Shown here: positions 49,908 to 64,000 of the stretch, in pieces | Layout: each line of letters begins with the position of its first letter | How positions within the stretch are numbered: the stretch's first letter is position 1 | NCBI RefSeq assembly: GCF_011304355.1 | Contig: NZ_CP049888.1 | Location: 1,302,001 to 1,366,000, forward strand | DNA: 64,000 nucleotides | DNA from: Weissella coleopterorum | GTDB lineage: Bacteria > Bacillota > Bacilli > Lactobacillales > Lactobacillaceae | Reading direction: 5' to 3' | Translations under genes and position numbers: made by a program | The notes under the pieces: generated by a model | Told to the model about the DNA's origin: nothing | Seen by the model: only the letters and a program-made list of their open reading frames with translations | Database searches by the model: none

Positions 49908-50020
49908 TTTAAGTCCCCCCATTTAATTTATTCTTAAAAACTGGATGTATTAAGAATAAATTCTAACGGAAGATCCCTCAAGTTTCAAGTCTACATAATG
50001 ACTCCAAATATCTCACAATC

Positions 50021-51313
50021 TTACTCTATAATTTTTGTTTCCCGCCCGGGTAAGATCATATTCAGACCAACGGCCAAGACTGCTGTAACAACAACCGCAT
50101 TTTGAATTACAATGTTGAGCATGGTAGGCATATGCTGGAACAATTGTGGATATGCCGAAATTCCAATTCCTGCTCCAATTGATAAAGCCGCAATCATTAA
50201 ATTACGTTCCATACTAAAATCAACTGAACGCATAATTGTTGTTCCTTGTACTCCGATTGTTCCAAATAAAATTAGCATCGCTCCACCCAAAACTGGATCT
50301 GGGATAATCGTAGCTAAAGCCCCAAACTTTGGTAACATCCCCACAATAATTAAAATGAAAGCTGCTGAGTAAATTGGTTGCTTCGAACGAACTCCTGAAA
50401 GCCGAACCACCCCCACATTTTGAGAAAAAGTCGAGTACGGAAAGGTGCTAAAAATCCCCGACAAGATCACAGCCAGACCCTCGGCACGATAACCACGGGC
50501 CATACTTTTTTCAGTTAACTTAGTACCCGTAATATCCGCAATAGCAAAATACACTCCGGTCGATTCAATCATGGATGTTAAGGCAATAATAATCATAGTT
50601 ATCATGGCTGAAGCGTGAAAAGTTGGTACTCCCATAAAAAATGGCACTGGTAAATGGACCCATGATGCATCTGCAACTGCTTGCAAGGAAACTTGTCCAA
50701 TCAATCCCGCATAAATCGTTCCCATAATAATTCCTAATAAAATGGCAATTGATTTCAAGAAACCTCTGGTGAAAATATTTAAAATAATAGTCACTATAAT
50801 AGTTACTGCGGCAATTGATAAGTCCGTCATATTTCCAAAACTTTTCGCTGCAATATCGCCACCACCGATCTTAGTCACCGCAACTGGAATTAATGATAAT
50901 CCAATCACCGTAATCAACGAACCCGTCACAACGGGCGGGAAAAAGCTGCGTAATTTGGCAAATAAGCCCGCGATTAAAAATACAAAAATTCCTGCTGAGA
51001 TCGTGGCTCCATACATGGCACCAATCCCTAAAGTGCCTCCAATATTAATTAAAGGTGAAACTGATTGAATCGCAGAGCCTAAAACCACGGGCATTGCAAT
51101 CCCCGTTAACCTTGTTGCCTTTAATTGTAAAAGTGTTCCAATTCCAGTCATAAAAATGTCAACTGAAATCAAATAAGTCATTTGTTGCGGTGTAAAATGC
51201 AGTGCGGCTCCAATCAATAAAGGAACCAAAATTCCACCCGCATACATGGCTAAGACATGCTGGAGCCCCAGAATAATTGATTGCAAAAACTTCGGCTTAC
51301 TTACCTGATCCAT
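50021..51313 (-). CDS. pbuX: Xanthine permease, NCS2 family
   Basis: 430-residue membrane protein with about 12-14 segments. GLQHVLAMYAGGILVPLLIG and the substrate motif region ESTGVYFAIADITG, with FSTFPYSTFSQNVGVVRLSG, match NCS2 xanthine/uric-acid carriers. The start at 51313 (MDQVSKPKF) has GAGGAG 10 bases upstream. A guanine-type riboswitch and terminator precede it, which supports a purine substrate. Confidence 0.9.
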   Translation of the reverse strand: MDQVSKPKFLQSIILGLQHVLAMYAGGILVPLLIGAALHFTPQQMTYLISVDIFMTGIGTLLQLKATRLTGIAMPVVLGSAIQSVSPLINIGGTLGIGAMYGATISAGIFVFLIAGLFAKLRSFFPPVVTGSLITVIGLSLIPVAVTKIGGGDIAAKSFGNMTDLSIAAVTIIVTIILNIFTRGFLKSIAILLGIIMGTIYAGLIGQVSLQAVADASWVHLPVPFFMGVPTFHASAMITMIIIALTSMIESTGVYFAIADITGTKLTEKSMARGYRAEGLAVILSGIFSTFPYSTFSQNVGVVRLSGVRSKQPIYSAAFILIIVGMLPKFGALATIIPDPVLGGAMLILFGTIGVQGTTIMRSVDFSMERNLMIAALSIGAGIGISAYPQLFQHMPTMLNIVIQNAVVVTAVLAVGLNMILPGRETKIIE

Positions 51314-51435
51314 CACTTTAAATCTCCTCTGGTGCGTGCTTGAATGCTCGTACAATCGTCGTTCATCGCAAACACCCCCACCAACACCAAATAAGCATCG
51401 CTGCTTTTGCTGTTCATGAATGAAAAAGTGATTAC

Positions 51436-51467
51436 AAAAACGCACCCAAACATAGTGAATGGGTGCG
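51436..51467 (-). terminator. Riboswitch-controlled terminator before pbuX
   Basis: CGCACCCA / TGGGTGCG stem followed by five T on the minus strand, 12 bases after the aptamer and about 120 bases before pbuX. Confidence 0.85.
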
Positions 51468-51479
51468 CAAAAAACTTCA

Positions 51480-51543
51480 TTTAGTAGTCTGCGTTTCGGT
51501 GCAGGTAGGAACTCGTTGGCCATTCTCCAACGATTATACTAAA
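51480..51543 (-). ncRNA. Purine riboswitch aptamer, guanine-type
   Basis: P1 TTTAGTA/TACTAAA encloses TATAATC, P2 CGTTGG/CCAACG, joining AGTTCCTACC, P3 around ACCGAAAC, and GACTAC. The C in GACTA (position 74 in the xpt numbering) indicates guanine or xanthine/hypoxanthine rather than adenine. It precedes a terminator, so ligand probably switches pbuX off. Confidence 0.9.
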
Positions 51544-51625
51544 CATTCATTGTTATTAATTTTTTTCATTATAAAAGATCAACCGGTGAATGGCAAGCCT
51601 TTTTCACAATTTACTTTAACGAAAT

Positions 51626-52319
51626 TTATTCAGCTGCCAATGTCAAAATTTCACCCTGCACGCCCAACTCTTTTTCAATTCGTGCTTGAAGCGCACGAAT
51701 CGCCTCTGCTCCACGTTCTTTCTGTATCTCAGTTATTCCTTCAATAATCAAAATCGCATCTTGTGTGGTTTCTGTTAACATCGTTCGCTGCGCATCGCGC
51801 CAATTTAAGGAACGACAAACCGCTCCCCGTGCATCATAATAAATTAATTCTTCTGGGAGAGCCGGTTCTGATTCATCAGCCCCCACGGGAATGAAAGCTT
51901 CACCGCCCTGGGCTAAGCCTAAGTGCATCGGTACTTCTACTGCTGCCAAATCTTCACCACCACAAGGTACCCCAAATTCTAACGAGATACTGTTATAGAT
52001 ATCCACCAATGGATTAATGGGTGCTAACTTTTTCCCCTGACCAACTCGTTTCAGCAATGCTTCAATCGATGAGCGGGCCCCCTTTTTTCTTTTTAAAATT
52101 AGTAAAGACTTGTCGCCACTCTTGAATAACGGCATTCTCCTTGAAGTCATCTTCTGATAAAAATTTTTTAGAAATTTCCATAGCTTCATCTAACAATTGT
52201 TTACTTCGAATTTCTCGTTCTGCCGATGAATGATTGTCAACTCCCTTCACCACTAAGGCAAAAATATTAGCCTCCGGAAAAATATTAAAAAAATCCTGAT
52301 CAATTACTAATGCTGTCAT
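51626..52319 (-). pseudogene. B3/B4 tRNA-binding-domain protein, one-base insertion
   Basis: Protein with the B3/4 domain of phenylalanyl-tRNA synthetase beta, found alone in many Firmicutes and thought to edit or bind tRNA. The first frame starts MTALVIDQDFFNIF at 52319 and reaches NFKKKKG; the second, one base off, continues ARSSIEALLKRVGQGKKLAPIN, SLEFGVPCGGEDL and YYDARGAVCRSLNWRDA. Without one base of the A6/G5 tract (G run 52078-52082, minus strand) a single 230-residue protein results. The start is one base after the GNAT stop. Confidence 0.82.
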
Positions 52320-52320
52320 A

Positions 52321-52848
52321 TTATTTTGCCCCTTTTAACTTATATTTTAATAGTAGATCGCGTTGAGCACTCCCACCTAGTTCAAAAATATGTTCACTAA
52401 ATGGGCTGAACCCTTGACTCTGATAAAACTGTAAAGCCGTTTGATTATGTTCCCACACCCCCAACCAAACGGTTTCTTTATCCGCTTTTCTCCCGATTTC
52501 TAAAGCATAATTCATCAAACTTTTTCCTAAGCCTTTTTGATGAAAGACCTGCCTAACGTAAATCCGCTCCACTTCCATCCAATTTTGTGTTTGCGGCTCC
52601 GACTGCGCTGAGCCAAAATTCAATTTTAAATAACCTGCTAATTGGTTATTCAATAAGATAAAGAAAAATTGACTTAGGGGATTTGCTATTTCTGCTTTTA
52701 ATATTTCAGGATGGTATGCCATTTGCACATATTTTTCAATATTTTCAGCTGAATTATATGGACCAAACGTTTCCATAAACGTTGCTCGACTAATTTCCTG
52801 TAATAAGTTCACCTAATGCAGTCCGACTGGCTTAATTTGAATTGTCAT
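52321..52848 (-). pseudogene. GNAT family N-acetyltransferase with early in-frame stop
   Basis: An ATG at 52848 with AAGAGGTC upstream opens MTIQIKPVGLH, then TAG at 52815-52813, then VNLLQEISRATFMETFGPYN in the same frame to the end. The family normally begins with such a lead, so one base change (probably GAG to TAG) seems to have made codon 12 a stop. Translation might restart at the following GTG (52812), leaving a 163-residue protein with acetyl-CoA loop QKGLGKSLMNYA. It lies downstream of marR. Confidence 0.75.
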
Positions 52849-52858
52849 TTTTGACCTC

Positions 52859-53314
52859 TTAATATATTCTTTTATAACCCTTTTTAACATCTTGCCAATC
52901 TTGCACTACATTCTGGGTAACTCTCTTCAACAATTTATCCATTACTTGAATTTCATCTGGTGACAATCCTTGCAGTGCTACTTGGGTGGAATAATCACTT
53001 TCACGAACTAACATATCATACAACTCTCGCCCTTTCTGGGAGCAATATAACTGTTGATTTTTCCGATTCATGGGATTTATTTTTTTTATAATTATATTTT
53101 GTTCTACCAATCGAGTAATCGCTCGATTAGTCGTAGTCTTATCCACACACAATAACTCCGATAATTGAATTTGAGTTATCCCAGGATTTTCGGTAATCCG
53201 ACTTAAGTATAAGTACTGTCCCCGAGCCAATTCAATTTCTTTAAATTCAATATTGCTTATCGAATCTAGTGCTCGCGCAATAGTTCCAATGTTTCGTAAA
53301 AACGTTTGATCCAA
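52859..53314 (-). CDS. MarR family transcriptional regulator
   Basis: 151 residues from a TTG at 53314 with GGAGG 10 bases upstream. Winged helix around TQIQLSELLCVDKTTTNRAITRLVEQNIIIKK (about 48-79). A perfect palindrome overlaps its promoter. Target unknown; the downstream GNAT and B3/4 genes and the upstream SMR pump are candidates. Confidence 0.88.
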   Translation of the reverse strand: MDQTFLRNIGTIARALDSISNIEFKEIELARGQYLYLSRITENPGITQIQLSELLCVDKTTTNRAITRLVEQNIIIKKINPMNRKNQQLYCSQKGRELYDMLVRESDYSTQVALQGLSPDEIQVMDKLLKRVTQNVVQDWQDVKKGYKRIY

Positions 53315-53354
53315 AATATTTTCACCTCCGCTCGATTAAAATAAATTCTACTTC

Positions 53355-53380
53355 ACTTTAGTTGCAAATGCAACTAAAGT
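53355..53380. promoter_or_regulatory. Perfect palindrome, probable MarR operator
   Basis: ACTTTAGTTGCA-AA-TGCAACTAAAGT, 12-base arms, ending one base before the SMR stop codon. A TTGCAA inside it can be the marR -35 box, so binding would repress marR. Confidence 0.7.
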
Positions 53381-53701
53381 TCAATGACCACTTGTAATTT
53401 TAATTCCAATAATACCTACTATTAACATGCCAATAAATAACCATGTCAACGGGTTGATTTGATCCTTGAAAAAAATCAACCCGACTAAAATCGATCCCAC
53501 TGCACCAATTCCAGTCCAAACAGGATAACCAATACTGAGCGGAAGATGTTTAACTGCTAAAGCTAAAAAGCCAAAACTCAACACCATCCCCATCAATGTC
53601 AGCATACTATATCCCAAATGTGTGAATCCTTGGCTTAATTTCATCGTAGTCGCCCATACGACTTCAAAAAGCCCCCCTAATATTAAATAAAACCACGTCA
53701 T
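53381..53701 (-). CDS. SMR family transporter (SugE/Gdx-like)
   Basis: 106 residues with four membrane segments and the essential Glu13 in GGLFEVVWATTMKLSQGF. The FEVVWA context is of the SugE/guanidinium-exporter branch rather than EmrE, but substrate cannot be fixed by sequence. Leader region holds a conditional-looking terminator. Confidence 0.85.
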   Translation of the reverse strand: MTWFYLILGGLFEVVWATTMKLSQGFTHLGYSMLTLMGMVLSFGFLALAVKHLPLSIGYPVWTGIGAVGSILVGLIFFKDQINPLTWLFIGMLIVGIIGIKITSGH

Positions 53702-53733
53702 CTCTTGATCCTCCTTTTAAAATTACAAAAAAA

Positions 53734-53777
53734 GGACTAGTTAAACTCTTCTATGACCTAATGAGTTTAAGCAGTCC
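53734..53777 (-). promoter_or_regulatory. Attenuator-like terminator in the SMR leader
   Basis: GGACT-CTTAAACTC pairs GAGTTTAA-TAGTCC followed by seven T, 33 bases before the SMR start. A second hairpin AGCATC-ACCG-GGTGCT (53795-53780) precedes it and a TATAAT (53822-53817) precedes that. The layout is that of a riboswitch or attenuator; the class is not identified. Confidence 0.6.
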
Positions 53778-53885
53778 CAAGCACCCGGTGATGCTCTTTG
53801 ATTCAATTGATTATATATTATAACTTATTTTGATACTGTTGGCATAAATTTCTATTTTAAGATCTTCATTTATTCAACTAGGTAA

Positions 53886-54419
53886 TTACACATCGGTTTC
53901 TAAAAATAATTGGTATACCACACGCTGATCATTTGGATCAGCATCCATATACACAATACCAGCCGCAAAAAATTTTGTTTTTTCAATAATGTGTTGCATT
54001 CTTAAATTTTGTTGGTGTGTGTCAATTCTAATTTCTTTAAATCCCAAATTAACGGCCACACTCATTAAATTACTAAATAAGAAATCTCCTAAATGTTGCC
54101 CAGCTTGTTGACCGCTAATTGCTACACGATGAATTGTTGCGTAAGCTTCGTTTGACCCTCGCCAAGTACCCTGATAAATTTTCCGATAATTCGGATCCGG
54201 TGTTGTTAACAATGTCGCTGTCCCCACAATTTGTTGATCCAATATCAATAAATATGTCATCCCTTTTTTGATATCAGTTAATAAATCCTGCTTTTGGGGA
54301 TAATTCCCTTGCCATTGTGGGATTCGATCGATCGCCAACTTTTGCTTGGCTCCTTGAATCAGCTGCTCAATTTTATCCAGATCTTGTTGCTTCGCTTTTC
54401 TCAGATAGATCGCTGGCAT
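53886..54419 (-). CDS. GNAT family N-acetyltransferase
   Basis: 177 residues. Acetyl-CoA loop region ISGQQAGQHLGDFLFSNL and DTHQQNLRMQHIIEKTKF fit GNAT proteins with a broad C-terminal binding region. Substrate unknown. 30 bases after the Crp-like regulator gene, same strand. Confidence 0.83.
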   Translation of the reverse strand: MPAIYLRKAKQQDLDKIEQLIQGAKQKLAIDRIPQWQGNYPQKQDLLTDIKKGMTYLLILDQQIVGTATLLTTPDPNYRKIYQGTWRGSNEAYATIHRVAISGQQAGQHLGDFLFSNLMSVAVNLGFKEIRIDTHQQNLRMQHIIEKTKFFAAGIVYMDADPNDQRVVYQLFLETDV

Positions 54420-54449
54420 AGTTTCCCCCTCAAAGATTCAATCACTTCT

Positions 54450-55139
54450 TTAATTTTTTTGAACATACCCTTTTAAATAATGCATGTCTCTAATAAGAAT
54501 ATATTTACCCGAATTATCAATTATATTTAATTTTGATAAATTTAACATAATACGTGACACAGAGTTTCGTGTCGTAATTCCACAAAATTCCGCAATTGTT
54601 CCTTGCGTAATTCGGTGTTTAATTACCACAGTTTCGTTTTCGGATGGCTTTCCAAAAAGTTGCCCACATTCATACAAAAAAGCACATACATTACCAGTTT
54701 TATTATTGCTCGTTTGCACCCTAATTTGATTAATATATTCATTAATTTTGCGACGGTAATATAATTTCAAATACTCCGACAATTTTGCATCCTGATTGAA
54801 CAGCTTCCAAAATTTTTCACGATTTACTTGTAAAAACGTTGCCTGTGTTGAATCTACTAAAACATCAACAGGTTGTTTATTTCTACCACCAGATTCTTCC
54901 TCGGTTAAAAGTGTCACAATTCCGGGATCAATCATATATTTAAGATTAACCAGTCTTTCATTGGCGCCCTTCAAAGAAGTAATAACAACCCCCTGTTTCA
55001 TAATATAAATATCACCTAAATCTTCACCTGCACGAACTAAATATTCTTTCCGCTTCAACGTAACCTCTTTAACGTCATTGTACGGTAACATATTTATTTG
55101 CTGAATTAAATACTCAATATATTCTTGTTCTGTGACCAT
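54450..55139 (-). CDS. Crp/Fnr family regulator, PrfA-like
   Basis: 229 residues from ATG 55139 (AAGGGG 12 bases upstream; ATG 55178 or TTG 55187 are alternatives). A cyclic-nucleotide-binding fold covers about 25-130 (YIMKQGVVITS, LVNLKYMIDPGIVTLL) and a Crp-type helix-turn-helix about 175-215 (GTIAEFCGITTRNSVSRIM). Length and these blocks resemble Listeria PrfA (237 residues). No N-terminal Cys cluster, so not an iron-sulphur FNR. Its own promoter carries a PrfA-box-like site shared with the adhesin promoters. Confidence 0.85.
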   Translation of the reverse strand: MVTEQEYIEYLIQQINMLPYNDVKEVTLKRKEYLVRAGEDLGDIYIMKQGVVITSLKGANERLVNLKYMIDPGIVTLLTEEESGGRNKQPVDVLVDSTQATFLQVNREKFWKLFNQDAKLSEYLKLYYRRKINEYINQIRVQTSNNKTGNVCAFLYECGQLFGKPSENETVVIKHRITQGTIAEFCGITTRNSVSRIMLNLSKLNIIDNSGKYILIRDMHYLKGYVQKN

Positions 55140-55294
55140 CGTGTCGTTGCACCCCTTATAAAAATTAAAATCTTTCATATTAATCAATATTTATTCCAAT
55201 TACCAAACCCTATTATGTTAGTATCTCAAATAATTTATGTTCTTACATTAACCTTCATAATCTACAAATAATTTACTCAGTTTTCCATATTAAC

Positions 55295-55300
55295 ATTATA
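55295..55300 (-). promoter_or_regulatory. -10 box of the PrfA-like regulator
   Basis: TATAAT on the minus strand, 67 bases downstream of the 14-bp box at 55368-55381. The -35 position is not recognisable, which fits an activator-dependent promoter. Confidence 0.55.
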
Positions 55301-55367
55301 TATCCACTGTATCTGAGTTATATTTTTAATTTTGCACAAAAACTCGACATTTTACGTTTGTAATTTG

Positions 55368-55381
55368 TTTACATTTGTCAC
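55368..55381. promoter_or_regulatory. PrfA-box-like site 3 (regulator promoter)
   Basis: TTTACATTTGTCAC, 12 of 14 identical to the adhesin sites GTTACATTTGTTAC. The spacer to TATAAT is 67 bases against 66 at the adhesins. Confidence 0.55.
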
Positions 55382-55564
55382 TTATGGGCTAATAGATTTT
55401 GCATAACCGAATTATTAATAAAACATTTTACGCAGGTCGGGAGAGTTAACTGAATTAAACAATATAGACTTCAGCTTAAGAAATTAGAAATAATTTCATC
55501 AGTAATAATCTTGAAGGTGACAATTGTCGCTAGCCCCTTCAATCCAGAATGTTATAATTCGACT

Positions 55565-55999
55565 ATGGAAAATAAATTTAGTTTAATACATTATGATTCA
55601 AAAAACGACCAAGAAGTTCAATATTCCGATGCTGAAATTACAGATCTGAAAATTGCTCAATTGGTCCATACAATTGCCAGTACTGCAGAGGACTTTGTTA
55701 TTATAACGCCAAACGTACCGATCAATGACAGTCTTTTTATGCAAATCATGGCGCTCAGCGATGATGATATGCATCTCGAAATCGGTTATGGTGATTACAA
55801 TTATATTTGTTATAAAAATATTGCAAAAGCGATTGTAGATTTACAGAATTATCATAACGAAATGCTCCCTGAATTAACTACATGGCAAAAATTCAATCTT
55901 CATAAGAAGGCCTTCTCATTTGCGAATAACTTCAAGCGCCTATTCCATCGCGACAAAAAAGATTCCGCTGATAAATATCAATCTAAAATTACTAAATAG
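55565..55999 (+). CDS. Hypothetical protein
   Basis: 144 residues from ATG 55565 (MENKFSLIHYDSKND); the frame is open to 55511 but lacks a ribosome site. No membrane segment; the middle is acidic (ALSDDDMHLEIGYGDY), the C-terminus strongly basic (NLHKKAFSFANNFKRLFHRDKK). No family recognised. TGTTATAAT, an extended -10, ends 7 bases before the ATG, so the mRNA may be leaderless. A terminator follows. Confidence 0.55.
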   Translation: MENKFSLIHYDSKNDQEVQYSDAEITDLKIAQLVHTIASTAEDFVIITPNVPINDSLFMQIMALSDDDMHLEIGYGDYNYICYKNIAKAIVDLQNYHNEMLPELTTWQKFNLHKKAFSFANNFKRLFHRDKKDSADKYQSKITK

Positions 56000-56000
56000 A

Positions 56001-56037
56001 AAACCGTTCGTTATAATTTAATAACTACGGTTTTTTT
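56001..56037 (+). terminator. Terminator of the 55.6 kb hypothetical gene
   Basis: AAACCGT-GTTAT / ATAAC-ACGGTTT followed by seven T on the plus strand. Confidence 0.75.
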
Positions 56038-56215
56038 ATATAGGGCGCTATTAATGGGCATTACTACTATGCCATCAACGTATTATCAATTTAATTTGGA
56101 TGCTTGATATTGTTCCTATTTCCGAGCAAGTATCGCTTGCTTTGCATGTGCCAGTACTAATTGCTTTTAATCAGACACAAAGTAGTCTTTAATAAAATAT
56201 GAAAGAGGTGAGGAT

Positions 56216-56974
56216 ATGAGTTTTCAGCATGATATCAAAAAATTAAGGGTCGATCATAATATGACTCAAAAAGAACTGGCAAATTTAATTCACGTTAGCC
56301 GTCAGACGATTTCGGCGTGGGAAAATGGGAAAAATTATCCCAGCTTAGAAGTTTTACGTGCATTGAGTGCTGTCTTCGACATTTCTTTTGAAAAAATACT
56401 ATTTGGAGAAGAACTTATGCATACAAAAGAAACTATTGCCGAAACAATCAATCAAGATTTATCTTTAAAGCGTAGATATAAAAAAGCGACAATGATCCTT
56501 AGTTCCATTATATTATTACTTATTTTATGGATCAGTATTTTAATACTGGGCTATCAAAAAGGAATTGATACGATCGATCGATTTGATCCTTTTTTACAAT
56601 ATTCAGTAGCCTATACTAAAGCCCCCAATAATAAAATTACTAATCCAAATAATGCTCAAGATGGAAAATGGACTAAATGGTTTTCTGACAATGAGATGGG
56701 GACACAATGGTCTAAATTAACTTTATCTACCGGGCTTAATCCAGGATTAGATGATCCCTATGTGATGGCTTACCACAAAGGCAGCTATGTTAAAATTGCC
56801 CGATTTGTGCCTGGTAATTCCGTAAATTCAATTATCAAAAGTAATATCTCTGCTATTGATCGCTTAGTTCATTCTAAAAGCCACGATAATTTAAGTTTAA
56901 ATATGTCATCTGAAGATAAATTAAAAAATAAAATCCATTCTAACCATGCAATTCAAGAATTAGTAATACAATAA
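56216..56974 (+). CDS. XRE regulator with a membrane span and extracellular domain
   Basis: 252 residues: helix-turn-helix at about 6-60 (MTQKELANLIHVSRQTISAWENGK), one membrane segment at about 92-112, then a roughly 140-residue outside domain (SVAYTKAPNNK to QELVIQ) I do not recognise. This layout would let an outside signal act on DNA binding. GAGG lies 7 bases upstream. It stands alone between the hypothetical gene and the adhesin cluster. Confidence 0.75.
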   Translation: MSFQHDIKKLRVDHNMTQKELANLIHVSRQTISAWENGKNYPSLEVLRALSAVFDISFEKILFGEELMHTKETIAETINQDLSLKRRYKKATMILSSIILLLILWISILILGYQKGIDTIDRFDPFLQYSVAYTKAPNNKITNPNNAQDGKWTKWFSDNEMGTQWSKLTLSTGLNPGLDDPYVMAYHKGSYVKIARFVPGNSVNSIIKSNISAIDRLVHSKSHDNLSLNMSSEDKLKNKIHSNHAIQELVIQ

Positions 56975-57187
56975 AGAGAGCAGTTATTGAACCTCTCCTC
57001 CCGAATTACGACATCAATTAAGCAGGTAAAGCACTACAGATAAATATAGTGTCTACGCCTCAAATAAATAATTTTTTTATTATGACCATATTTACTCAAA
57101 TAAGCCCTATCACGTTTAAAAAACGGCAGTATTTAATTCGATGACCTAAGCCCATATTGATTTTTACACTCCACGGGCGGAGATAAT
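56975..57187. other. Non-coding stretch before the adhesin cluster
   Basis: AT-rich sequence of about 210 bases without an ORF, repeat or box that I can support; the terminator at 57188 follows. Confidence 0.5.
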
Positions 57188-57222
57188 AAAAAAGCCAAGT
57201 GAATTCATCGCTTGGCTTTTTT
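57188..57222. terminator. Converging terminator
   Basis: AAAAAAGCCAAG / CTTGGCTTTTTT perfect 12-base arms, T and A runs on both sides. It can end the 56.2 kb gene (plus) and the adhesin at 57.3 kb (minus). Confidence 0.85.
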
Positions 57223-57306
57223 AAATATATTAATCGTAATACTTAATTTTTAACAAACAGCCCTATCTTTACTTTATATAATTATCAATAGAATGTTGCT
57301 AAATTA

Positions 57307-59549
57307 TTATTTGCGCTTCTTCCAAACTACTAATCCGGCCAATGAAGCTAATCCAACACTCACAATTCCAACTAGGGTGACCTTTTCAGTCGACGTCTTT
57401 GGCAACATCGTTTGAACGCGCTCAACCACATTATTGACAACGTTATTGACCGTTGAATTATTATCTGCGGGCTGATCTGTATCATCGGAATGATCCGGTA
57501 TATCAGGTTTTGCTGGGTCACTTGGTTTTACGGTATTGTCGTCATTCCTAGTGTAAATATAAGTCACAGTCTGTGCCTTGTCAGTAAACTCTCCGTTGGT
57601 TGATCCCTTAACTTCCTTGAAGGTATATCCAGTAAGCTCTTTCTTAGCAGTCGTATACTTATCGCCAATATTTCCAGTCTTCACTTCTGATTTGGCAAGC
57701 TCCTGACCATTTTCATCCGTATACTTGACGGTTACATCCGCCCCTTTTTTAGGATTCTTAGTATAAACGTACGTTACTGTTTGATCACTAGCCTTAAAGA
57801 TACCATTTTCTGTACCTTGGACTTTTTTAATCGTGTAGCCATTAATATCTTTTTGTTTCGTCGTATAATGGTCTCCCGCTTTACCAGTCAAAGCTTCTGT
57901 CTTGGCTAATTCTCGGTTGGCCTCGTCTACATATTTAACTGTCACTTTCCCATTGACAACTGGCTTTGTAGGCGTTGCGGTGGTAACTTTTTTGTAAACC
58001 ATCGTGACCGTTTGAGCTTGATCGGTAAATTTACCTGTCTCATTGCCAGCTTTTGCAGATTGGAAAACAAAACCTGGAATTGTCTGTTTTTCTGCGGTAT
58101 ATGTTCTACCGATATTACCTTTTAATGTATTGTCTTGAGCTAAAGCCTTTCCGGTTTCATCAACATATTTAACCGTGACGTGCGCACCCTTCACAGGTTC
58201 CCACACGTAGGTATCTGCATCTTTTGCACCATTAAAATTATTCATCAGATCAGCTGATGTCCATGAATTTTCACCAGTGGGGGTATCGGCGGATCCTGAA
58301 CCAACGTTACGCCAATTCCCATGATATTGATACCCATTGAGATTTTGTTTACCCGCTTCAGGCAAACCAACATTGTACTTTTTTCCCCCCAACCTACGCT
58401 GTTTAAATTGTTTTTCGGTCCTATTTTTAATTCTTCTAACTGTGACATATCGGCTAACATTCCCGTTAAGCCTTGAGTATATGTATCACTTTCAATATTT
58501 TCATGATCTAACGTCAACATTTCATTATTGGTCATATCAATTTTAGAAATATCCAATTTTTTAATTGATGATGCGCCATTAAACATATTTCTCACACCAA
58601 TAAGTTGCCCAGTCGTCCAATTTTCAATATCAACTGAGGTCAAACTGGTATCCTTACGAAACATACTGTTTAAAGCATTAACATGTGATAAATCCCATGC
58701 TCCAGTTTTGACGGTTTTTAATGAGGCATCATACGAGAACATACTCGTGACAGTCTTAGCATTAGCCATATCAAAATTGGAAACGTCTAAATTTGATATA
58801 TATGGAGTCATGGCAAACATATACGTGAAACTGACTCCATTTGACGTATTAAAATTGGACACATCTAATTCCTTAATATTTCCCATCCCTGAAAACATCC
58901 GGTCAAAATGCTTACCATTTGCTGTATCCAAATGAGAAACATCCAAACTTTTTAGATTGCGCATATGATAGAACGTACCCCAAAATGAAACTACTTGAGA
59001 TGAATCAAAGTTAGATAAATCTAATGATTCGTACGATGTTTCCGCAAAAAGATAATTAAAGTTTGTTAAATTAGACGTATCAATATTATTCATACCTTCA
59101 ATCACAGTAGCTTTGGTAGAATTAGTGAATAGTTCAATTGTGTCATTATTGTTAGCAATAATTTTTACTTTTCCATCAAATTTCACGTGTTCTGCATTTT
59201 GGATATCTTCAAGTAATCCGTTATTAACTACATCCGCTCCTCCATTGGCAGTATATGTGCCAGCATGATAAGTCACCGTCTTCGTTGTTGCATCATACGA
59301 GTAAGGTAATCCATTTACTGTTGCATCTTCAGTTTCTGAAGTTGCTTTGTTAGTTTGTGCATCAACGTTATTATTATTTTGCTGAATATTTTTTTGAGTG
59401 GATTTATGATTGTTTTTGTTAATCGATTCGGATGAACTTTGACTACTTGAATTACTACCAATATTCGATTGTTCATCAGCTAAGGCCACCAAAGGATTCA
59501 TCAATCCTAAAATAGTAGTGCTTAATAATAAATACTTACTTATTTTCAT
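57307..59549 (-). pseudogene. LPXTG-type adhesin, BspA repeats plus three MucBP domains, one-base deletion
   Basis: Secreted protein with signal peptide to about 25 (STTILGLMNPLVALAD). The first frame has BspA-like DUF285 leucine-rich repeats (about 150-390, e.g. MFSGMGNIKELDVSNFNTSN) and goes out of frame after LNSVGWG. The second frame has YNVGLPEAGK, three MucBP domains (each VTVKYxDE...VTYxYTK) and a wall anchor LPKTSTEK, hydrophobic stretch, KKRK. The break is in a G6A6 tract (58379-58390); one more base joins a 747-residue protein. AGGAG lies 8 bases before the start. It has its own promoter with a PrfA-like box. Confidence 0.85.
57551..58051 (-). repeat. 501-bp repeat copy A (MucBP domains)
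   Basis: Nearly identical to 61210-61710, same length, in the second adhesin gene. It covers the last two MucBP domains and most of the first. Large enough for homologous exchange. Confidence 0.85.
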
Positions 59550-59609
59550 TTTTAATACTCCTAATTAATAAATTAACAATTTTAAGTTTCATTTAATATC
59601 AACTCTGAA

Positions 59610-59615
59610 ATTATA
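59610..59615 (-). promoter_or_regulatory. -10 box of adhesin A promoter
   Basis: TATAAT in the context AATATATAATTT, 66 bases downstream of PrfA-box-like site 1. No good -35 box. Confidence 0.5.
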
Positions 59616-59681
59616 TATTAAAAATGGCGTATATTAATATTGCTTATTTCACGATATAAGCGTAATTTTTGTTTTAATTGC

Positions 59682-59695
59682 GTTACATTTGTTAC
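59682..59695. promoter_or_regulatory. PrfA-box-like site 1 (adhesin A promoter)
   Basis: GTTACATTTGTTAC, a near palindrome identical (in reverse) to site 2 at 63105. It shares 9 of 12 fixed positions with the Listeria PrfA box TTAACA-NN-TGTTAA. Confidence 0.6.
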
Positions 59696-59753
59696 TTTTT
59701 GTATTTTTTAAATAACTGAATTTTATGACTTACGTTTGCATTACAAGTTCTAA

Positions 59754-59793
59754 CAAAAAAGCTTCAACAGTTAAGTCAAAGCAATTATTATTA
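59754..59793 (-). terminator. Terminator of the Cna-B gene
   Basis: GCTT-TGACTTAACTGTTG-AAGC followed by six T on the minus strand. A close copy lies before the other adhesin operon at about 63150-63172. Confidence 0.5.
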
Positions 59794-59800
59794 ATCTATT

Positions 59801-60943
59801 TTATTTACTTTTCTTCCAAACTACCAATCCAGACATTGAAGCTAGCATAACACTCACAATCCCAGCTAACGTCAAATTTTGTGCACCTGTCTTTGGTAAT
59901 AAAGTACGATTATTTTTTTCAACATTTTTAGATTTTTGATTCTTTGAATTTGTAGTTCCTAAATCTGAACTACTATTTGTATCACCACCTACAACATTGC
60001 CATCAGTTTCATCATGTGTTTTATCGTTATTATCAACTGTCGGTTTCGTTGGTGTATTGGTCCCAGGATTCGCGGGCTTCGTTGGTGTATTGGTGCTTGG
60101 ATTTGCAGGCATTGTTGGTGTATTAGTGCTTGGGTCGTTATCAACTAAAGTATTTGTTAAATTATTACCATCGATCTTAGTTGTATAATTATTGACCGTA
60201 TTTTCACTAATTGTATATGTGTACGGATTATTATCCTTATCTGACACCGGTAAATCAATAAAGGTATACTTCCAATTAGCTGCCTCATCTACCACCTTAC
60301 TATCAATTTTAGTTCCATTTCTCAATAGATTAACTGTAATGTTATTCGGGCGTAATCCTTTTTTGTTGTTATTATCAACCCAAGTTTTTTGCCCGTCAAC
60401 CGCAATCGTATTAATGTAATTCCAATAATAATTAACGTTCGTTCTAAAAAGCACATTATTATTTTCGATTTTATTGCGATCAATATTAACCGTTAAGATT
60501 ATTTGTTCGCCTTTAGCCATTTTTATATTGGACGTGACACTATCATTGATTTCTAATCCACTCGTTTGTACGCCTGCATAAATTTTATTATCAACAAAAT
60601 GATATTGACTAGCATTTAATGTTTGTTCAACACCATTTACCTTGAGCGTAACAGATTTAATTGTTGAAGTTGTCACATTAATTTTACCATCTACATAATC
60701 AAAGTAATCCGCAAGTGAGGGTGAACTAACATAGCTAGCTCCGTTATGATCATCTGTTACTTCAACAGTTGACTTAACTTGTTTCGTGCTAGCATCAATA
60801 TCATTTAAATCTTCATGAATTGTTAATGTTCCTTTGACATTCTCTGCATGAACTGATTGTTGTAACCCAGTCATTGCAAGCATGGCAAAAATCATTACCA
60901 ATATATTCAAAATTCGCTTATTTATATTCTGACTAATCATCAT
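59801..60943 (-). CDS. LPXTG surface protein with Cna-B domain
   Basis: 380 residues: signal peptide to about 33 (MTGLQQSVHAE), an N-terminal unknown domain, a Cna B-type domain (about 180-270, GQKTWVDNNNKK...YTYTISENTV), a Pro/Thr-rich repeat stalk (units of 11 residues) and the wall anchor LPKTGAQN, hydrophobic stretch, KKSK. Likely a pilus- or adhesin-type subunit anchored by sortase. It follows the second large adhesin by 25 bases, so same operon. Confidence 0.85.
   Translation of the reverse strand: MMISQNINKRILNILVMIFAMLAMTGLQQSVHAENVKGTLTIHEDLNDIDASTKQVKSTVEVTDDHNGASYVSSPSLADYFDYVDGKINVTTSTIKSVTLKVNGVEQTLNASQYHFVDNKIYAGVQTSGLEINDSVTSNIKMAKGEQIILTVNIDRNKIENNNVLFRTNVNYYWNYINTIAVDGQKTWVDNNNKKGLRPNNITVNLLRNGTKIDSKVVDEAANWKYTFIDLPVSDKDNNPYTYTISENTVNNYTTKIDGNNLTNTLVDNDPSTNTPTMPANPSTNTPTKPANPGTNTPTKPTVDNNDKTHDETDGNVVGGDTNSSSDLGTTNSKNQKSKNVEKNNRTLLPKTGAQNLTLAGIVSVMLASMSGLVVWKKSK
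60042..60136 (-). repeat. 33-bp tandem repeat, about three copies
   Basis: Encodes NTPTKPANPGT-like 11-residue stalk units; GTTGGTGTATT recurs at 60048, 60081 and 60114. Prone to copy-number change. Confidence 0.85.
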
Positions 60944-60968
60944 AATTTGTTTTCCCTTTTCAAATCGA

Positions 60969-62981
60969 TTACTTTCTTTTCTTCCAAACGACTAATCCAG
61001 CTAATGAAGCTATTACAACACTCACAATTCCAATTAGTGTCAACTTTTGTGCTGAAGTCTTCGGTAACATCGTTTCAACATTATTAACTACCCGGTTTAC
61101 AACATTATTCGTTGTTTCGTTCTTGGCATTAGTATTTGAATCCGTCTGGTTATCCGGTGTATTCGGCTGAACTGGTTCACTTGGCTTTACACTATTTTCA
61201 TCATTCTTAGTGTAAATATATGTCACGGTTTGTGCCTTATCAGTAAACTCGCCGTTGGTTGATCCCTTAACTTCCTTGAAAGTATATCCAGTAAGCTCTT
61301 TCTTTTCAGTCGTATACTTATCGCCAACATTTCCACGCTTAGTCTCTGACTTGGCAATTGCTTTTCCATTCTCATCCATATACTTGACGGTTACATCCGC
61401 CCCTTTTTCAGGATTCTTAGTATAAACGTAAGTTACTGTTTGACCACTTGCCTTAAAGATACCATTTTCTGTGCCCTGGACTTTTTTAAACGTGTAGCCG
61501 CTAATATCTTTTTGTTTCGTCGTATAATGATCTCCCGCTTTACCAGTCAAAGCTTCCGATTTGGCTAATTCTCGGTTAGCCTCGTCTACATATTTAACTG
61601 TCACTTTCCCATTGACAACCGGCTTTGTTGGCGTTGCGGTGGTAACTTTTTTGTAAACCATCGTAACCGTTTGAGCTTGATCGGTAAATTTACCTATCTC
61701 ATTGCCAGCTTGCGATTTTTCAAAGATATACCCAGATATATTCTTTTTGGTTACTGTGTATGGTTCATTAATATCACCACTTAATGAAGTATCGGGGCTG
61801 ATCGTCTTTCCGTCTTCATTTACATATTTGACGGTTACATCCGCACCCGGTTTAACCACAGGTTGCCAAACATACGCGCCTGCATCTCGGTCGCCCTGGT
61901 AGTTAGCTTGGAATTCCTTCCCACTCCAAACGTTTTTGCCCTTTGGAAAATCTGGCGTCCCATCGCCAATGTTTTGCCACTTCCCCGTATATTCTATGCC
62001 AGCTTTTTCATTAATAGTCATATATTTCAATTCAGGGTCATATATTTCACCATCATTATGGTGGAATTGTAATTTATCTCCTAAAATCACCTCGAAAAGA
62101 CCGAGACCATTAAGAAAAAGCGAAGTATTCGCTTTGGATGTATCAAAACTGCTTATATTTAATACATTAAGTCCTATCATTCCTGAAAACATAACTCCCA
62201 TATCTGTCACATTCGAGGTGTTCCAAGTACTCAAATCTAATTCGGACCACTTTGCGTCCGTTATTGGTTTATTTTTATTATTAATTGATTCTGGGTCAAA
62301 CGTCGCGGTAGCAAACATCCAGCCCATATCCGTAACTTTAGAAGTATCAAAATTTTTCATATTAAATCCATCGGAATTAATATGAGCCAAACTAAACATA
62401 CCTGCCATATTCGTTACATTCGAGGTATCCCAATTGTCTAACTGATTTGCAAAATCTAAATAGGATTTGTCATCTCCCGCAAACATATTCCGCATCATAG
62501 TTACATTTGATACATCAACTTGGTTTAATCCACTGTTTTTATTAATACCTCCTCCAGAAAATAACATTGAGGCATCCCCATTAATTTTTAATGGCCCATC
62601 GATTTTATAAACAGTGTCGTTATTATCAAAAATATCCCGTAACCCATCAATATCATGAATTGGCTCTGGATTAGTGACTTCACCCGCTGGAACATGCACA
62701 ATCAACTTGGTGGCATCGCTACTATCCGGCACAACAGTAATATTCAATCCCGAATCTCCCCATGGAAATGTTTGAACTGCTAGCGGATTATTTATTGGTG
62801 CTTTTTTAACATTATTTAGATTATCTTTAACGTTTTTACTAGGCTTATCAGAATTACTTTGAAACGTTTCAGCATCAATTGAACTCATTTTTGTCTGTGT
62901 ATCAGCCAAGGCCACCAAAGGATTAATCAAGCCAAGGATCGTTGTGCTTAGTAATAAGCACTTTCCAATATTAGTTTTCAT
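60969..62981 (-). CDS. LPXTG-type adhesin, BspA-like repeats plus three MucBP domains
   Basis: Intact 670-residue paralogue of adhesin A: signal peptide to about 27 (TILGLINPLVALAD), DUF285-like repeats (about 110-330, e.g. WDTSNVTNMAGMFS), three MucBP domains (about 385-590) and anchor LPKTSAQK, hydrophobic stretch, KKRK. MucBP binds mucus glycans in the family. Start has GGGAG 8 bases upstream. First gene of a two-gene operon with the Cna-B protein. Confidence 0.9.
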   Translation of the reverse strand: MKTNIGKCLLLSTTILGLINPLVALADTQTKMSSIDAETFQSNSDKPSKNVKDNLNNVKKAPINNPLAVQTFPWGDSGLNITVVPDSSDATKLIVHVPAGEVTNPEPIHDIDGLRDIFDNNDTVYKIDGPLKINGDASMLFSGGGINKNSGLNQVDVSNVTMMRNMFAGDDKSYLDFANQLDNWDTSNVTNMAGMFSLAHINSDGFNMKNFDTSKVTDMGWMFATATFDPESINNKNKPITDAKWSELDLSTWNTSNVTDMGVMFSGMIGLNVLNISSFDTSKANTSLFLNGLGLFEVILGDKLQFHHNDGEIYDPELKYMTINEKAGIEYTGKWQNIGDGTPDFPKGKNVWSGKEFQANYQGDRDAGAYVWQPVVKPGADVTVKYVNEDGKTISPDTSLSGDINEPYTVTKKNISGYIFEKSQAGNEIGKFTDQAQTVTMVYKKVTTATPTKPVVNGKVTVKYVDEANRELAKSEALTGKAGDHYTTKQKDISGYTFKKVQGTENGIFKASGQTVTYVYTKNPEKGADVTVKYMDENGKAIAKSETKRGNVGDKYTTEKKELTGYTFKEVKGSTNGEFTDKAQTVTYIYTKNDENSVKPSEPVQPNTPDNQTDSNTNAKNETTNNVVNRVVNNVETMLPKTSAQKLTLIGIVSVVIASLAGLVVWKKRK
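61210..61710 (-). repeat. 501-bp repeat copy B (MucBP domains)
   Basis: Partner of 57551-58051; differences are scattered single bases. Recent duplication or gene conversion is likely. Confidence 0.85.
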
Positions 62982-63032
62982 ACTACCTACTCCCGAAGTA
63001 ATTTACATAAAATTATCATTTATTATTTTTAA

Positions 63033-63038
63033 ATTATA
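63033..63038 (-). promoter_or_regulatory. -10 box of adhesin B operon
   Basis: TATAAT in the context GATATATAATTT, 66 bases downstream of site 2. Confidence 0.5.
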
Positions 63039-63104
63039 TATCTAAAGATAGACGATAATTTTCCGGTTTTTTATCAGGTAACATTAAAATATTAATAGAA
63101 TTAT

Positions 63105-63118
63105 GTAACAAATGTAAC
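63105..63118. promoter_or_regulatory. PrfA-box-like site 2 (adhesin B operon)
   Basis: GTAACAAATGTAAC, the exact reverse complement of site 1 and at the same distance from its TATAAT. Confidence 0.6.
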
Positions 63119-63248
63119 CTTAAAACAACCGATTTAATTACATAAAAAAATCGCTTCAACAATTAAGTCAGAGCGAACATGCCAGCGGGCAAATCTTTAA
63201 TTTTTAATCAAAAAAAACGCAAAACACAACATATTTACCACAAAAACC

Positions 63249-63276
63249 ACGTAATTTAGATTATCCTAATTTACGT
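63249..63276 (-). terminator. Terminator of tmRNA
   Basis: ACGTAAATTAG / CTAAATTACGT with one mismatch and GGTTTTTG following on the minus strand, 70 bases after the tmRNA 3' end. Confidence 0.65.
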
Positions 63277-63345
63277 TATATCATTTAAAACGTTGATATA
63301 TAAAGGTTTGTGTATCCTGTTTTTACGTTAATTAGTTTTATATTA

Positions 63346-63703
63346 TGGAGCCGAGGGGAGTTGAACCCCTGTCCTAGTACCTTGATACTAATACATCTAC
63401 GTTCATAGTTAATTAATTTAAACTTCACCCGCGGCACGCCAATCAACAAGGCGATCCTTTAGGCTAATCTGATTATCCTCTTCATAACAACTTCAGATGG
63501 GAGTGTTACGCGCAGACCATAATTATTATGACTAACTAAACTGGATGGTCACCAGTCGCGTTAGTTTGGTTCACTGGTTATTAAGCAGCGAAAGCCAAGT
63601 TGTTTGAATTTTTTGCAGTTAATTCGTCTGAGTGGATTATAGGGCCACAACCCCTAAACGCAATATTAGCTCAAACAGCACTAGTCGATTCCGGAACGAC
63701 CCC
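63346..63703 (-). ncRNA. ssrA: tmRNA (SsrA)
   Basis: Transfer-messenger RNA. Acceptor GGGGTCG (5' end 63703) pairs CGGCTCC near the 3' end with A at 63346; GTTCAACTC forms the T loop. CCA is not encoded. The tag frame runs from 63616 (GCA) to TAA at 63581 and reads AKNSNNLAFAA, ending in the hydrophobic pattern needed for proteolysis. About 358 bases. A TATAAT lies at 63720-63715. Confidence 0.95.
63581..63616 (-). CDS. tmRNA proteolysis tag, AKNSNNLAFAA
   Basis: Eleven codons and a stop inside tmRNA. The ribosome resumes on the GCA codon at 63616. The C-terminal LAFAA takes the place of the usual LAA/VAA ends. Confidence 0.9.
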   Translation of the reverse strand, partial: AKNSNNLAFAA

Positions 63704-63741
63704 CGTACCCCCTTATTATAGCTGATTTTGATATAAAAAGA

Positions 63742-63770
63742 AAACCGGATCTGTCTAACAGTTCCGGTTT
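63742..63770 (-). terminator. Terminator of the penicillin-binding protein gene
   Basis: AAACCGGA / TCCGGTTT stem with T run TCTTTTT on the minus strand. Confidence 0.75.
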
Positions 63771-63778
63771 GCTTAAAA

Positions 63779-64000
63779 TTATTTATTAACAAAGGTATTT
63801 TCGAGGTAATCAACTGCATTTTTAGCTACCACATCTGCTTGTGGATTTTTATTATTTCCATTTACCACAGAATCTTCGACTACAAAAATCCCCGTAAATT
63901 TATTGTTTTGTAAATCGTGAATGGAAACAAGTGCGTTTTGATTATTGTTTCCAGTCTCAGCAGTTCCTGTTTTAGCGGCAAGTTTATAACCCTCATTGTA
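63779..64000 (-). CDS. Penicillin-binding protein, C-terminal end (probable class B)
   Basis: Last 73 residues of a transpeptidase running off the window. KLAAKTGTAE at the start of the visible part is the KTG active-site motif, followed by FTGIFVVEDSV and a C-terminal helix. Class B is suggested by the short tail after KTG. The gene has its own terminator and precedes tmRNA on the same strand. Confidence 0.8.
   Translation of the reverse strand, partial: YNEGYKLAAKTGTAETGNNNQNALVSIHDLQNNKFTGIFVVEDSVVNGNNKNPQADVVAKNAVDYLENTFVNK

Follow-up and report, generated by a model that had tools for sequence, protein, structure and literature searches.

A distant box at fixed spacing marks a probable adhesin regulon in Weissella coleopterorum, with putative repeat attenuators before several of its PrfA-like regulators

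The DNA analysed here is a stretch of 64,000 nucleotides of the Weissella coleopterorum chromosome (NZ_CP049888.1, positions 1,302,001 to 1,366,000; the window in what follows). It encodes a PrfA-like regulator of the Crp/Fnr superfamily and, close by, large surface adhesins, and one box lies upstream of the regulator and of two adhesins. In the whole genome, a single contig of 1.62 Mb that includes the window, this box at a fixed spacing from the -10 element marks a regulon. Taken as a whole, it seems likely, though well short of assured, that this adhesion regulon is read by a set of PrfA/LarR-like paralogs, four of them behind repeat attenuators.

Exact copies of GTTACATTTGTTAC occur in the window at 59682-59695 (+) and 63105-63118 (-), in opposite orientations before the two large adhesins, and a 12/14 copy, TTTACATTTGTCAC, occurs at 55368-55381 before the Crp/Fnr-type gene. 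An earlier note, made from the letters of this DNA alone, had described this arrangement, together with spacers of 66, 66 and 67 nt to TATAAT, unrelated sequence in between and no good -35 element. All of this held, the best -35 candidates of the three promoters matching TTGACA at 4/6, 2/6 and 3/6 positions. Its figure for agreement with the PrfA box, 9 of the 12 fixed positions, was reproduced by eye against the consensus TTAACANNTGTTAA. Both large genes do encode DUF285/MucBP/LPXTG adhesins, but in the one behind the box at 59682 the reading frame breaks near 58,385, beside a G6A6 run, which splits the gene; paralogs without such a break occur elsewhere in the genome. Two further adhesins in the genome (206689-209313 and 1581633-1579381) are each interrupted by a single in-frame stop. 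Loose matches to the box (three mismatches at most) are at the background count in the window, 14 versus 11.0 expected, and so are treated as background.

The search that the earlier note had proposed, for the box with TATAAT at this spacing, bears out an adhesin regulon. The pattern ATTATA-N63..71-TNACANNTGTNA has 8 matches in this genome versus 0 reversed, and all 8 precede an adhesin (5) or a PrfA-like regulator gene (3), with spacings of 65-67 nt. The same pattern gives 15 matches versus 31 reversed in 59 relatives together (summed by hand). A looser version gives 13 matches versus 6 reversed in this genome, 8 of the 13 being the adhesin and regulator promoters just described. GTNACANNTGTNAC occurs 7 times versus 0 in the reversed control, six times in a promoter and once within a 584-aa open reading frame (ORF). 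Chance copies, which the note had named as a danger to its reading, are of little concern for the spaced pattern. They do matter for the box taken without its spacing, since 7 copies here barely exceed the counts of 0-6 among the 59 relatives (0-8 for reversed controls).

A weight matrix built from 7 box sites and run over 217,014 bases ranks the same eight promoters top. The next distinct box lies before a regulator fragment at 1024887, and in the intervening rows the eight boxes are merely read again at an offset or on the other strand. No TATAAT site scored as high in 20 Mb of simulated sequence with the dinucleotide make-up of the window, but the matrix was trained on the tested sites, and the GTNACANNTGTNAC and spaced-pattern counts are fairer tests than this simulation. 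None of the nine box promoters has a good -35 element, the best TTGACA match being 1-4/6.

The box positions, the fixed spacing and the gene contexts are read directly from the DNA; we infer binding and activation. Weissella activators of the PrfA/LarR-like Crp/Fnr type would bind the near-palindrome GTnACAnnTGTnAC, centred near -85, and the bound activator would recruit RNA polymerase to promoters with a good -10 and no -35 box. The targets would be DUF285/MucBP/LPXTG adhesins and the regulator genes themselves. Because boxes also precede regulator genes, the paralogs would regulate themselves or each other.

How far does this control extend? MucBP matches number 42 in the genome and fall in 13 genes, one of which (290869) looks phage-like by eye, leaving 12 adhesin genes. 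A box promoter precedes five of these. Another three (206689; 1140429, with 1140490 in between; 1586029) come after a PrfA-like gene that has a repeat leader, and one (980512) lies behind a leader that has no repeat.

Several results weigh against the box reading. Three of the 12 adhesin genes (700005, 707264 and 783129) have neither an in-register box nor a leader. Good boxes scoring 14-15.3 but lacking a good -10 in register occur among the scanned bases at 1357517, 1364500, 1589443 and 711870; the one at 1364500 is a 13/14 copy within the 670-aa adhesin ORF (window 62500-62513). Three of the promoters (173128, 1361682 and 1482708) are nearly identical from the box through the spacer to the -10, so that the nine sites (INDEPENDENCE) amount to about seven independent cases, and the eight to about six. 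LarR-type half-boxes are not enriched in the box-to-TATAAT spacers (5 versus 5.7, P 0.69). Conservation, on which the earlier note had staked its reading, is partial. In a second Weissella species (G006) the regulator promoter carries GTAACATACGTTAC 66 nt before TATAAT, but in W. kandleri the box of one regulator promoter, GTAGCATATGTTAC, lies at 54 nt rather than 66, and no box was present in the two adhesin promoters checked. The regulator-promoter box recurs in relatives, whereas boxes before adhesins have so far been seen in W. coleopterorum only, and the spacing can vary.

Two of the boxless adhesins, 700005 and 783129, have another sequence in common upstream, GTTTGTCTTAACATATAACATG, and may therefore answer to some other regulator.

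The window regulator has an N-terminal cNMP-type beta barrel and a C-terminal Crp-type winged helix-turn-helix, which places it in the Crp/Fnr superfamily. PrfA of Listeria is its closest solved relative and its top match by sequence and by modelled structure, in line with the PrfA-like assignment made earlier. Identity is 17%, and the last residue (245) aligns to PrfA residue 223 of 237. Judged from its sequence and modelled structure, the protein is PrfA-like yet not PrfA. The two systems share the fold, recognition-helix residues, the box core ACAnnTGT and a box in the regulator's own regulatory region. They differ in that no residues here extend beyond PrfA 223, several paralogs and repeat leaders are present, and the box-to--10 distance is 65-67 nt in nine promoters versus 22-23 nt for PrfA. 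Activation of PrfA is glutathione-dependent. The host had been called a lactic acid bacterium, correctly, as it belongs to the same genus as G011.

PrfA-like homologues in the genome comprise six intact genes, five of adhesion type and one of LarR type, plus one fragment. Three of the five adhesion-type homologues have a strong box in their own promoter, 65-67 nt from TATAAT; a fourth has, at 66 nt, a box that matches 8/10 positions, and in the fifth the match is 7/10 and the -10 is poor (both found by eye). A tree gives a 100/100 split between nine adhesion-type Weissella rows and 19 others, including the LarR-type rows; the window regulator is set apart from the latter, on a long branch. LarR of Lactiplantibacillus plantarum also belongs to the PrfA group and to a member of the Lactobacillaceae, and its palindromic box lies upstream of the promoter. 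Besides the grouping, it differs in that the spacers here hold no excess of half-Lar-boxes and the targets here are adhesins. The LarR-type paralog, at genome 1473.6 kb, adjoins a LarA-like gene and other lar-like genes (by eye), and no LarA-like ORF was seen by eye near the window regulator among the ORFs of 50000-64000. Ers of Enterococcus faecalis (PMC2824692) is likewise a PrfA-like regulator in Lactobacillales; the portion of that paper available to us describes a stress-response role and mentions neither an adhesin box array nor a repeat leader.

This family makes two earlier claims unproven or too narrow. The regulator was called autoregulated, and its own promoter does contain a box, but with several box-bearing homologues in the genome this could be cross-regulation among paralogs. 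The box regulon was assigned to this one regulator; the regulon was found, but five intact adhesion-type homologues and a LarR-type one could share it. The observation behind the earlier note is thus confirmed and its interpretation partly supported, largely correct but drawn too narrowly; the paralogs behind repeat leaders lie outside the window, so its reader could not see them. An alternative that we think unlikely, but with a real share of the probability, is that the box belongs to the paralog family and that the window regulator is minor or antagonistic, the main reader being the 1549-kb paralog, a switched-on 1586-type paralog or LarR. The recognition-helix residues are common to all six intact homologues, the sites before several of them look alike, and the regulator nearest a box is not necessarily its reader. 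Yet the window regulator adjoins the adhesins and has a box in its own promoter, and a scan of the 8.5 kb around the LarR-type gene gave only a poor in-register site (total score 4.0).

A second layer of control is suggested by five (AGCAC)n arrays, all outside the window, with n=24 (205.8 kb), 18 (649.7 kb), 12 (1024.7 kb), 27 (1144.3 kb) and 28 (1586.9 kb). At each locus a leader ORF containing (AGCAC)12-28 is followed by a terminator and then by the gene. Four arrays precede PrfA-like genes, one of them the fragment, and the three intact ones have downstream, within 17-50 nt and in the same direction, a gene for an adhesin or other LPXTG protein. The fifth array (649.7 kb) precedes the gene of a SecA-domain protein; the second gene after it encodes a GtfA-domain protein, and the operon probably serves accessory secretion. 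The SecA-type protein is probably SecA2 and the Gtf-type protein probably GtfB, both named by eye. At 1587153, box promoter, leader, repeat, terminator, regulator and adhesin stand in series. The window regulator and the 1549-kb paralog each have a box promoter and no repeat leader.

Counting loci in all genomes, the 5-bp repeat lies in an ORF with its ATG 4 or 7 nt before the array at 8/8 loci with a readable start. A hairpin with a T run lies between array and gene at 9/9 loci with readable downstream DNA, starting 25-50 nt past the array; the W. kandleri C12 locus, with N downstream of its array, was left out of the hairpin and frame counts. An AGCAC array contains no T and is therefore open in every frame. 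At eight of the nine loci, two frames stop before the hairpin and one runs at least 10 nt into it, versus 3.9 loci on average when the array-to-hairpin stretch is shuffled (P 0.006). The frame stops are two-peaked, with none between 22 nt and hairpin+15 versus 7.4 in shuffles (8-locus test, without the G129 locus).

The leader, repeat and terminator layout and the frame arithmetic are features of the DNA itself; leader translation, slippage and switching are inferred. A translated (AGCAC)n leader and an intrinsic terminator would together control the SecA-type operon and four regulator genes, of which one is now a fragment and the rest stand at the head of adhesin operons. Slippage would alter n. 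In usually one of the three frames the ribosome would enter the terminator hairpin and open it (ON); in the others it would stop earlier and transcription would end (OFF). Frame arithmetic puts the SecA leader of the sequenced clone in the ON frame and all four regulator leaders in an OFF frame. That would leave the window regulator and the 1549-kb paralog as active readers of the adhesin boxes, and both, having no repeat leader, would be steadily available in that role.

The closest known system to these leaders is the pil1/pil3 leader attenuator of Streptococcus gallolyticus (Danne et al. 2014, PMC3894217). There, too, a pentanucleotide repeat lies in a leader ORF with a terminator just downstream, the frame sets ribosome access to the hairpin, and the output is surface adhesion; a change in repeat number alters leader length, and the ribosome destabilises the terminator. 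The repeat is GCAGA there versus AGCAC here. The pil1/pil3 leaders lie directly before pilus genes, whereas those described here lie before transcription-factor and SecA-type genes and, in two relatives, before type III Mod or ResIII-type helicase genes. This genome also has five copies, and at one of these the promoter carries the box and may thus be activated by the very family that the leader controls.

Some points tell against the frame logic, and the weightiest are the closeness of many OFF stops to the hairpin, the common ancestry of the leaders and a possible promoter over the leader start. At the G009 locus, the exception among the nine, two frames pass the terminator. At six of the nine loci at least one OFF stop lies only 13-27 nt before the hairpin, whereas in S. 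gallolyticus low expression is reported with stops at least 28 nt before it (PMC3894217). The leaders are partly related by descent, which makes the P values optimistic, and the G011 and G023 arrays abut N runs, so that their leader starts are assumed and the switch states there are not reliable. Finally, a TTGACA lies 17-20 nt (by eye) before a CATAAT-like hexamer that overlaps the leader ATG and could form a promoter skipping the leader. If TTGACA-N17-20-CATAAT is indeed the promoter, the transcript starts at the first repeat, the array is an untranslated 5' region and the frame pattern reflects coincidence or shared descent. We give this perhaps one chance in five. A TTGACA-like hexamer (at least 5/6) is found 21-26 nt before the leader ATG at 8/8 loci checked, and CATAAT (7) or GACAAT (1) overlaps that ATG at all eight (1143 kb read manually). 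Against it stand the two-peaked stops, a Shine-Dalgarno-like stretch (at least 5/7 matches) before the ATG at 7/8 loci and TATAAT-like sites further upstream at 7/8, weak evidence in A+T-rich DNA. In addition, a leader at 980392-980512 (L173), before a MucBP adhesin, lacks the repeat and yet retains an ORF, of 21 codons, whose end falls within the terminator hairpin, though TTGACA-to-CATAAT is 20 nt there. It looks like a locked-ON relic or derivative of the repeat switch.

Arrays occur in 4 genomes among 60 relatives. The ATG-anchored form occurs in 4 of 397 family genomes, one of another genus, versus 0 in the reversed control; G023 is in the 60-relative count only. Both W. kandleri arrays precede PrfA-like genes, only one of which is followed by a DUF285/MucBP adhesin; the neighbours of that locus (response regulator, kinase and metallophosphoesterase, by eye) are of the kinds seen at 200-209 kb here. 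Repeat leaders also precede a ResIII-type helicase gene with a DNA methylase gene nearby (G009, L137) and a type III Mod gene (G023, L138), suggesting phase-variable restriction-modification in these relatives. In the genome of another genus (G129, L176/L208), an (AGCAC)23 leader with terminator precedes a 610-aa putative secreted protein, and the present frame reaches the terminator. Among open-licence PubMed Central papers, we found none that deals with repeat leaders in Weissella or with such an attenuator before a regulator gene.

Returning to the box, the direction of control is not readable from sequence, and the site might be a repressor operator, where the protein bound near -85 forms a loop with another, weak site or stands in the way of some factor not seen here. 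The distance beyond the classic activator positions of -41.5 and -61.5 would suit this, but the lack of good -35 elements suggests that an activator is needed, half-sites are not in excess within the spacers, and PrfA and LarR are activators; we regard it as improbable. It is very improbable that the box is a meaningless by-product of recent adhesin gene and promoter duplication, as the near-duplicate trio might suggest, for the other six sites (1365105, 1581757, 1357368, 1550436, 1587153 and 1024887) have box and spacing in common but unrelated spacers, the gene behind four of them is a regulator (in one case a fragment) rather than an adhesin, and the arrangement is present in G006 too.

Table 1. 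Regulator, adhesins, promoters and boxes (window coordinates unless marked genome)
Feature	Position	Strand	Remarks
PrfA-like Crp/Fnr regulator	54450..55187	-	245 aa from TTG; database copy P0001 is 229 aa; no repeat leader
Regulator promoter TATAAT	55295..55300	-	
Box GTGACAAATGTAAA	55368..55381	-	67 nt upstream of regulator TATAAT
DUF285 (PARCEL-repeat)/MucBP/LPXTG adhesin, split	57307..59549	-	ORFs 58245-59549 and 57307-58392
Split-adhesin promoter TATAAT	59610..59615	-	
Box GTAACAAATGTAAC (gene-ward reading)	59682..59695	-	66 nt upstream of split-adhesin TATAAT
Cna_B/LPXTG surface protein	59801..60943	-	next downstream of 670-aa adhesin, same strand
DUF285/MucBP/LPXTG adhesin, 670 aa	60969..62981	-	
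670-aa adhesin promoter TATAAT	63033..63038	-	
Box GTTACATTTGTTAC	63105..63118	-	66 nt upstream of 670-aa adhesin TATAAT
Adhesin box promoters	genome 173128, 1361682 (window), 1365105 (window), 1482708, 1581757		
Regulator box promoters	genome 1357368 (window), 1550436, 1587153		
Ninth box, regulator fragment	genome 1024887		66 nt to TATACT

Beside the regulator lies a divergent 162-aa ORF (window 55511-55999) with no Pfam match. A box-like GTGACAATTGTCGC at its start (window 55517-55530, genome 1357517) scores 14.0 and has no good -10 in register. Transposase-like ORFs of 273 aa that look alike by eye (genome 176, 698, 706, 979, 983 and 1023 kb) adjoin many of the adhesin genes, as well as the broken regulator at 1024 kb, and are perhaps the source of duplications.

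Regulons of the PrfA/LarR group and attenuators of the pil1 type are known kinds of control. What appears to be new here is that putative repeat attenuators of the pil1 type act on genes for transcription factors. The box, as a possible activator site, clearly illustrates how such a site can lie unusually far out and still keep a fixed position. The known range of the S. gallolyticus type of attenuator would come to include Weissella and, within the family, one genome from a different genus. Both the switch state, as repeat number, and the targets, as box plus 66 nt, would be predictable from sequence, and this in a lactic acid bacterium whose genome is small.

The best-known cases of phase variation concern single surface genes and DNA methyltransferases. 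We tentatively propose, at somewhat less than even chances, that the two layers form a stacked switch. PrfA-like activators with one common box would each be toggled by an attenuator of their own, one of them behind a box promoter that the family might activate. Random slippage in a few leaders, combined by way of the common box and positive feedback, would then yield many heritable states of adhesin expression, with a phase-variable SecA/Gtf secretion operon in parallel. If true, this would be phase variation of a transcription-factor family and not of single surface genes.

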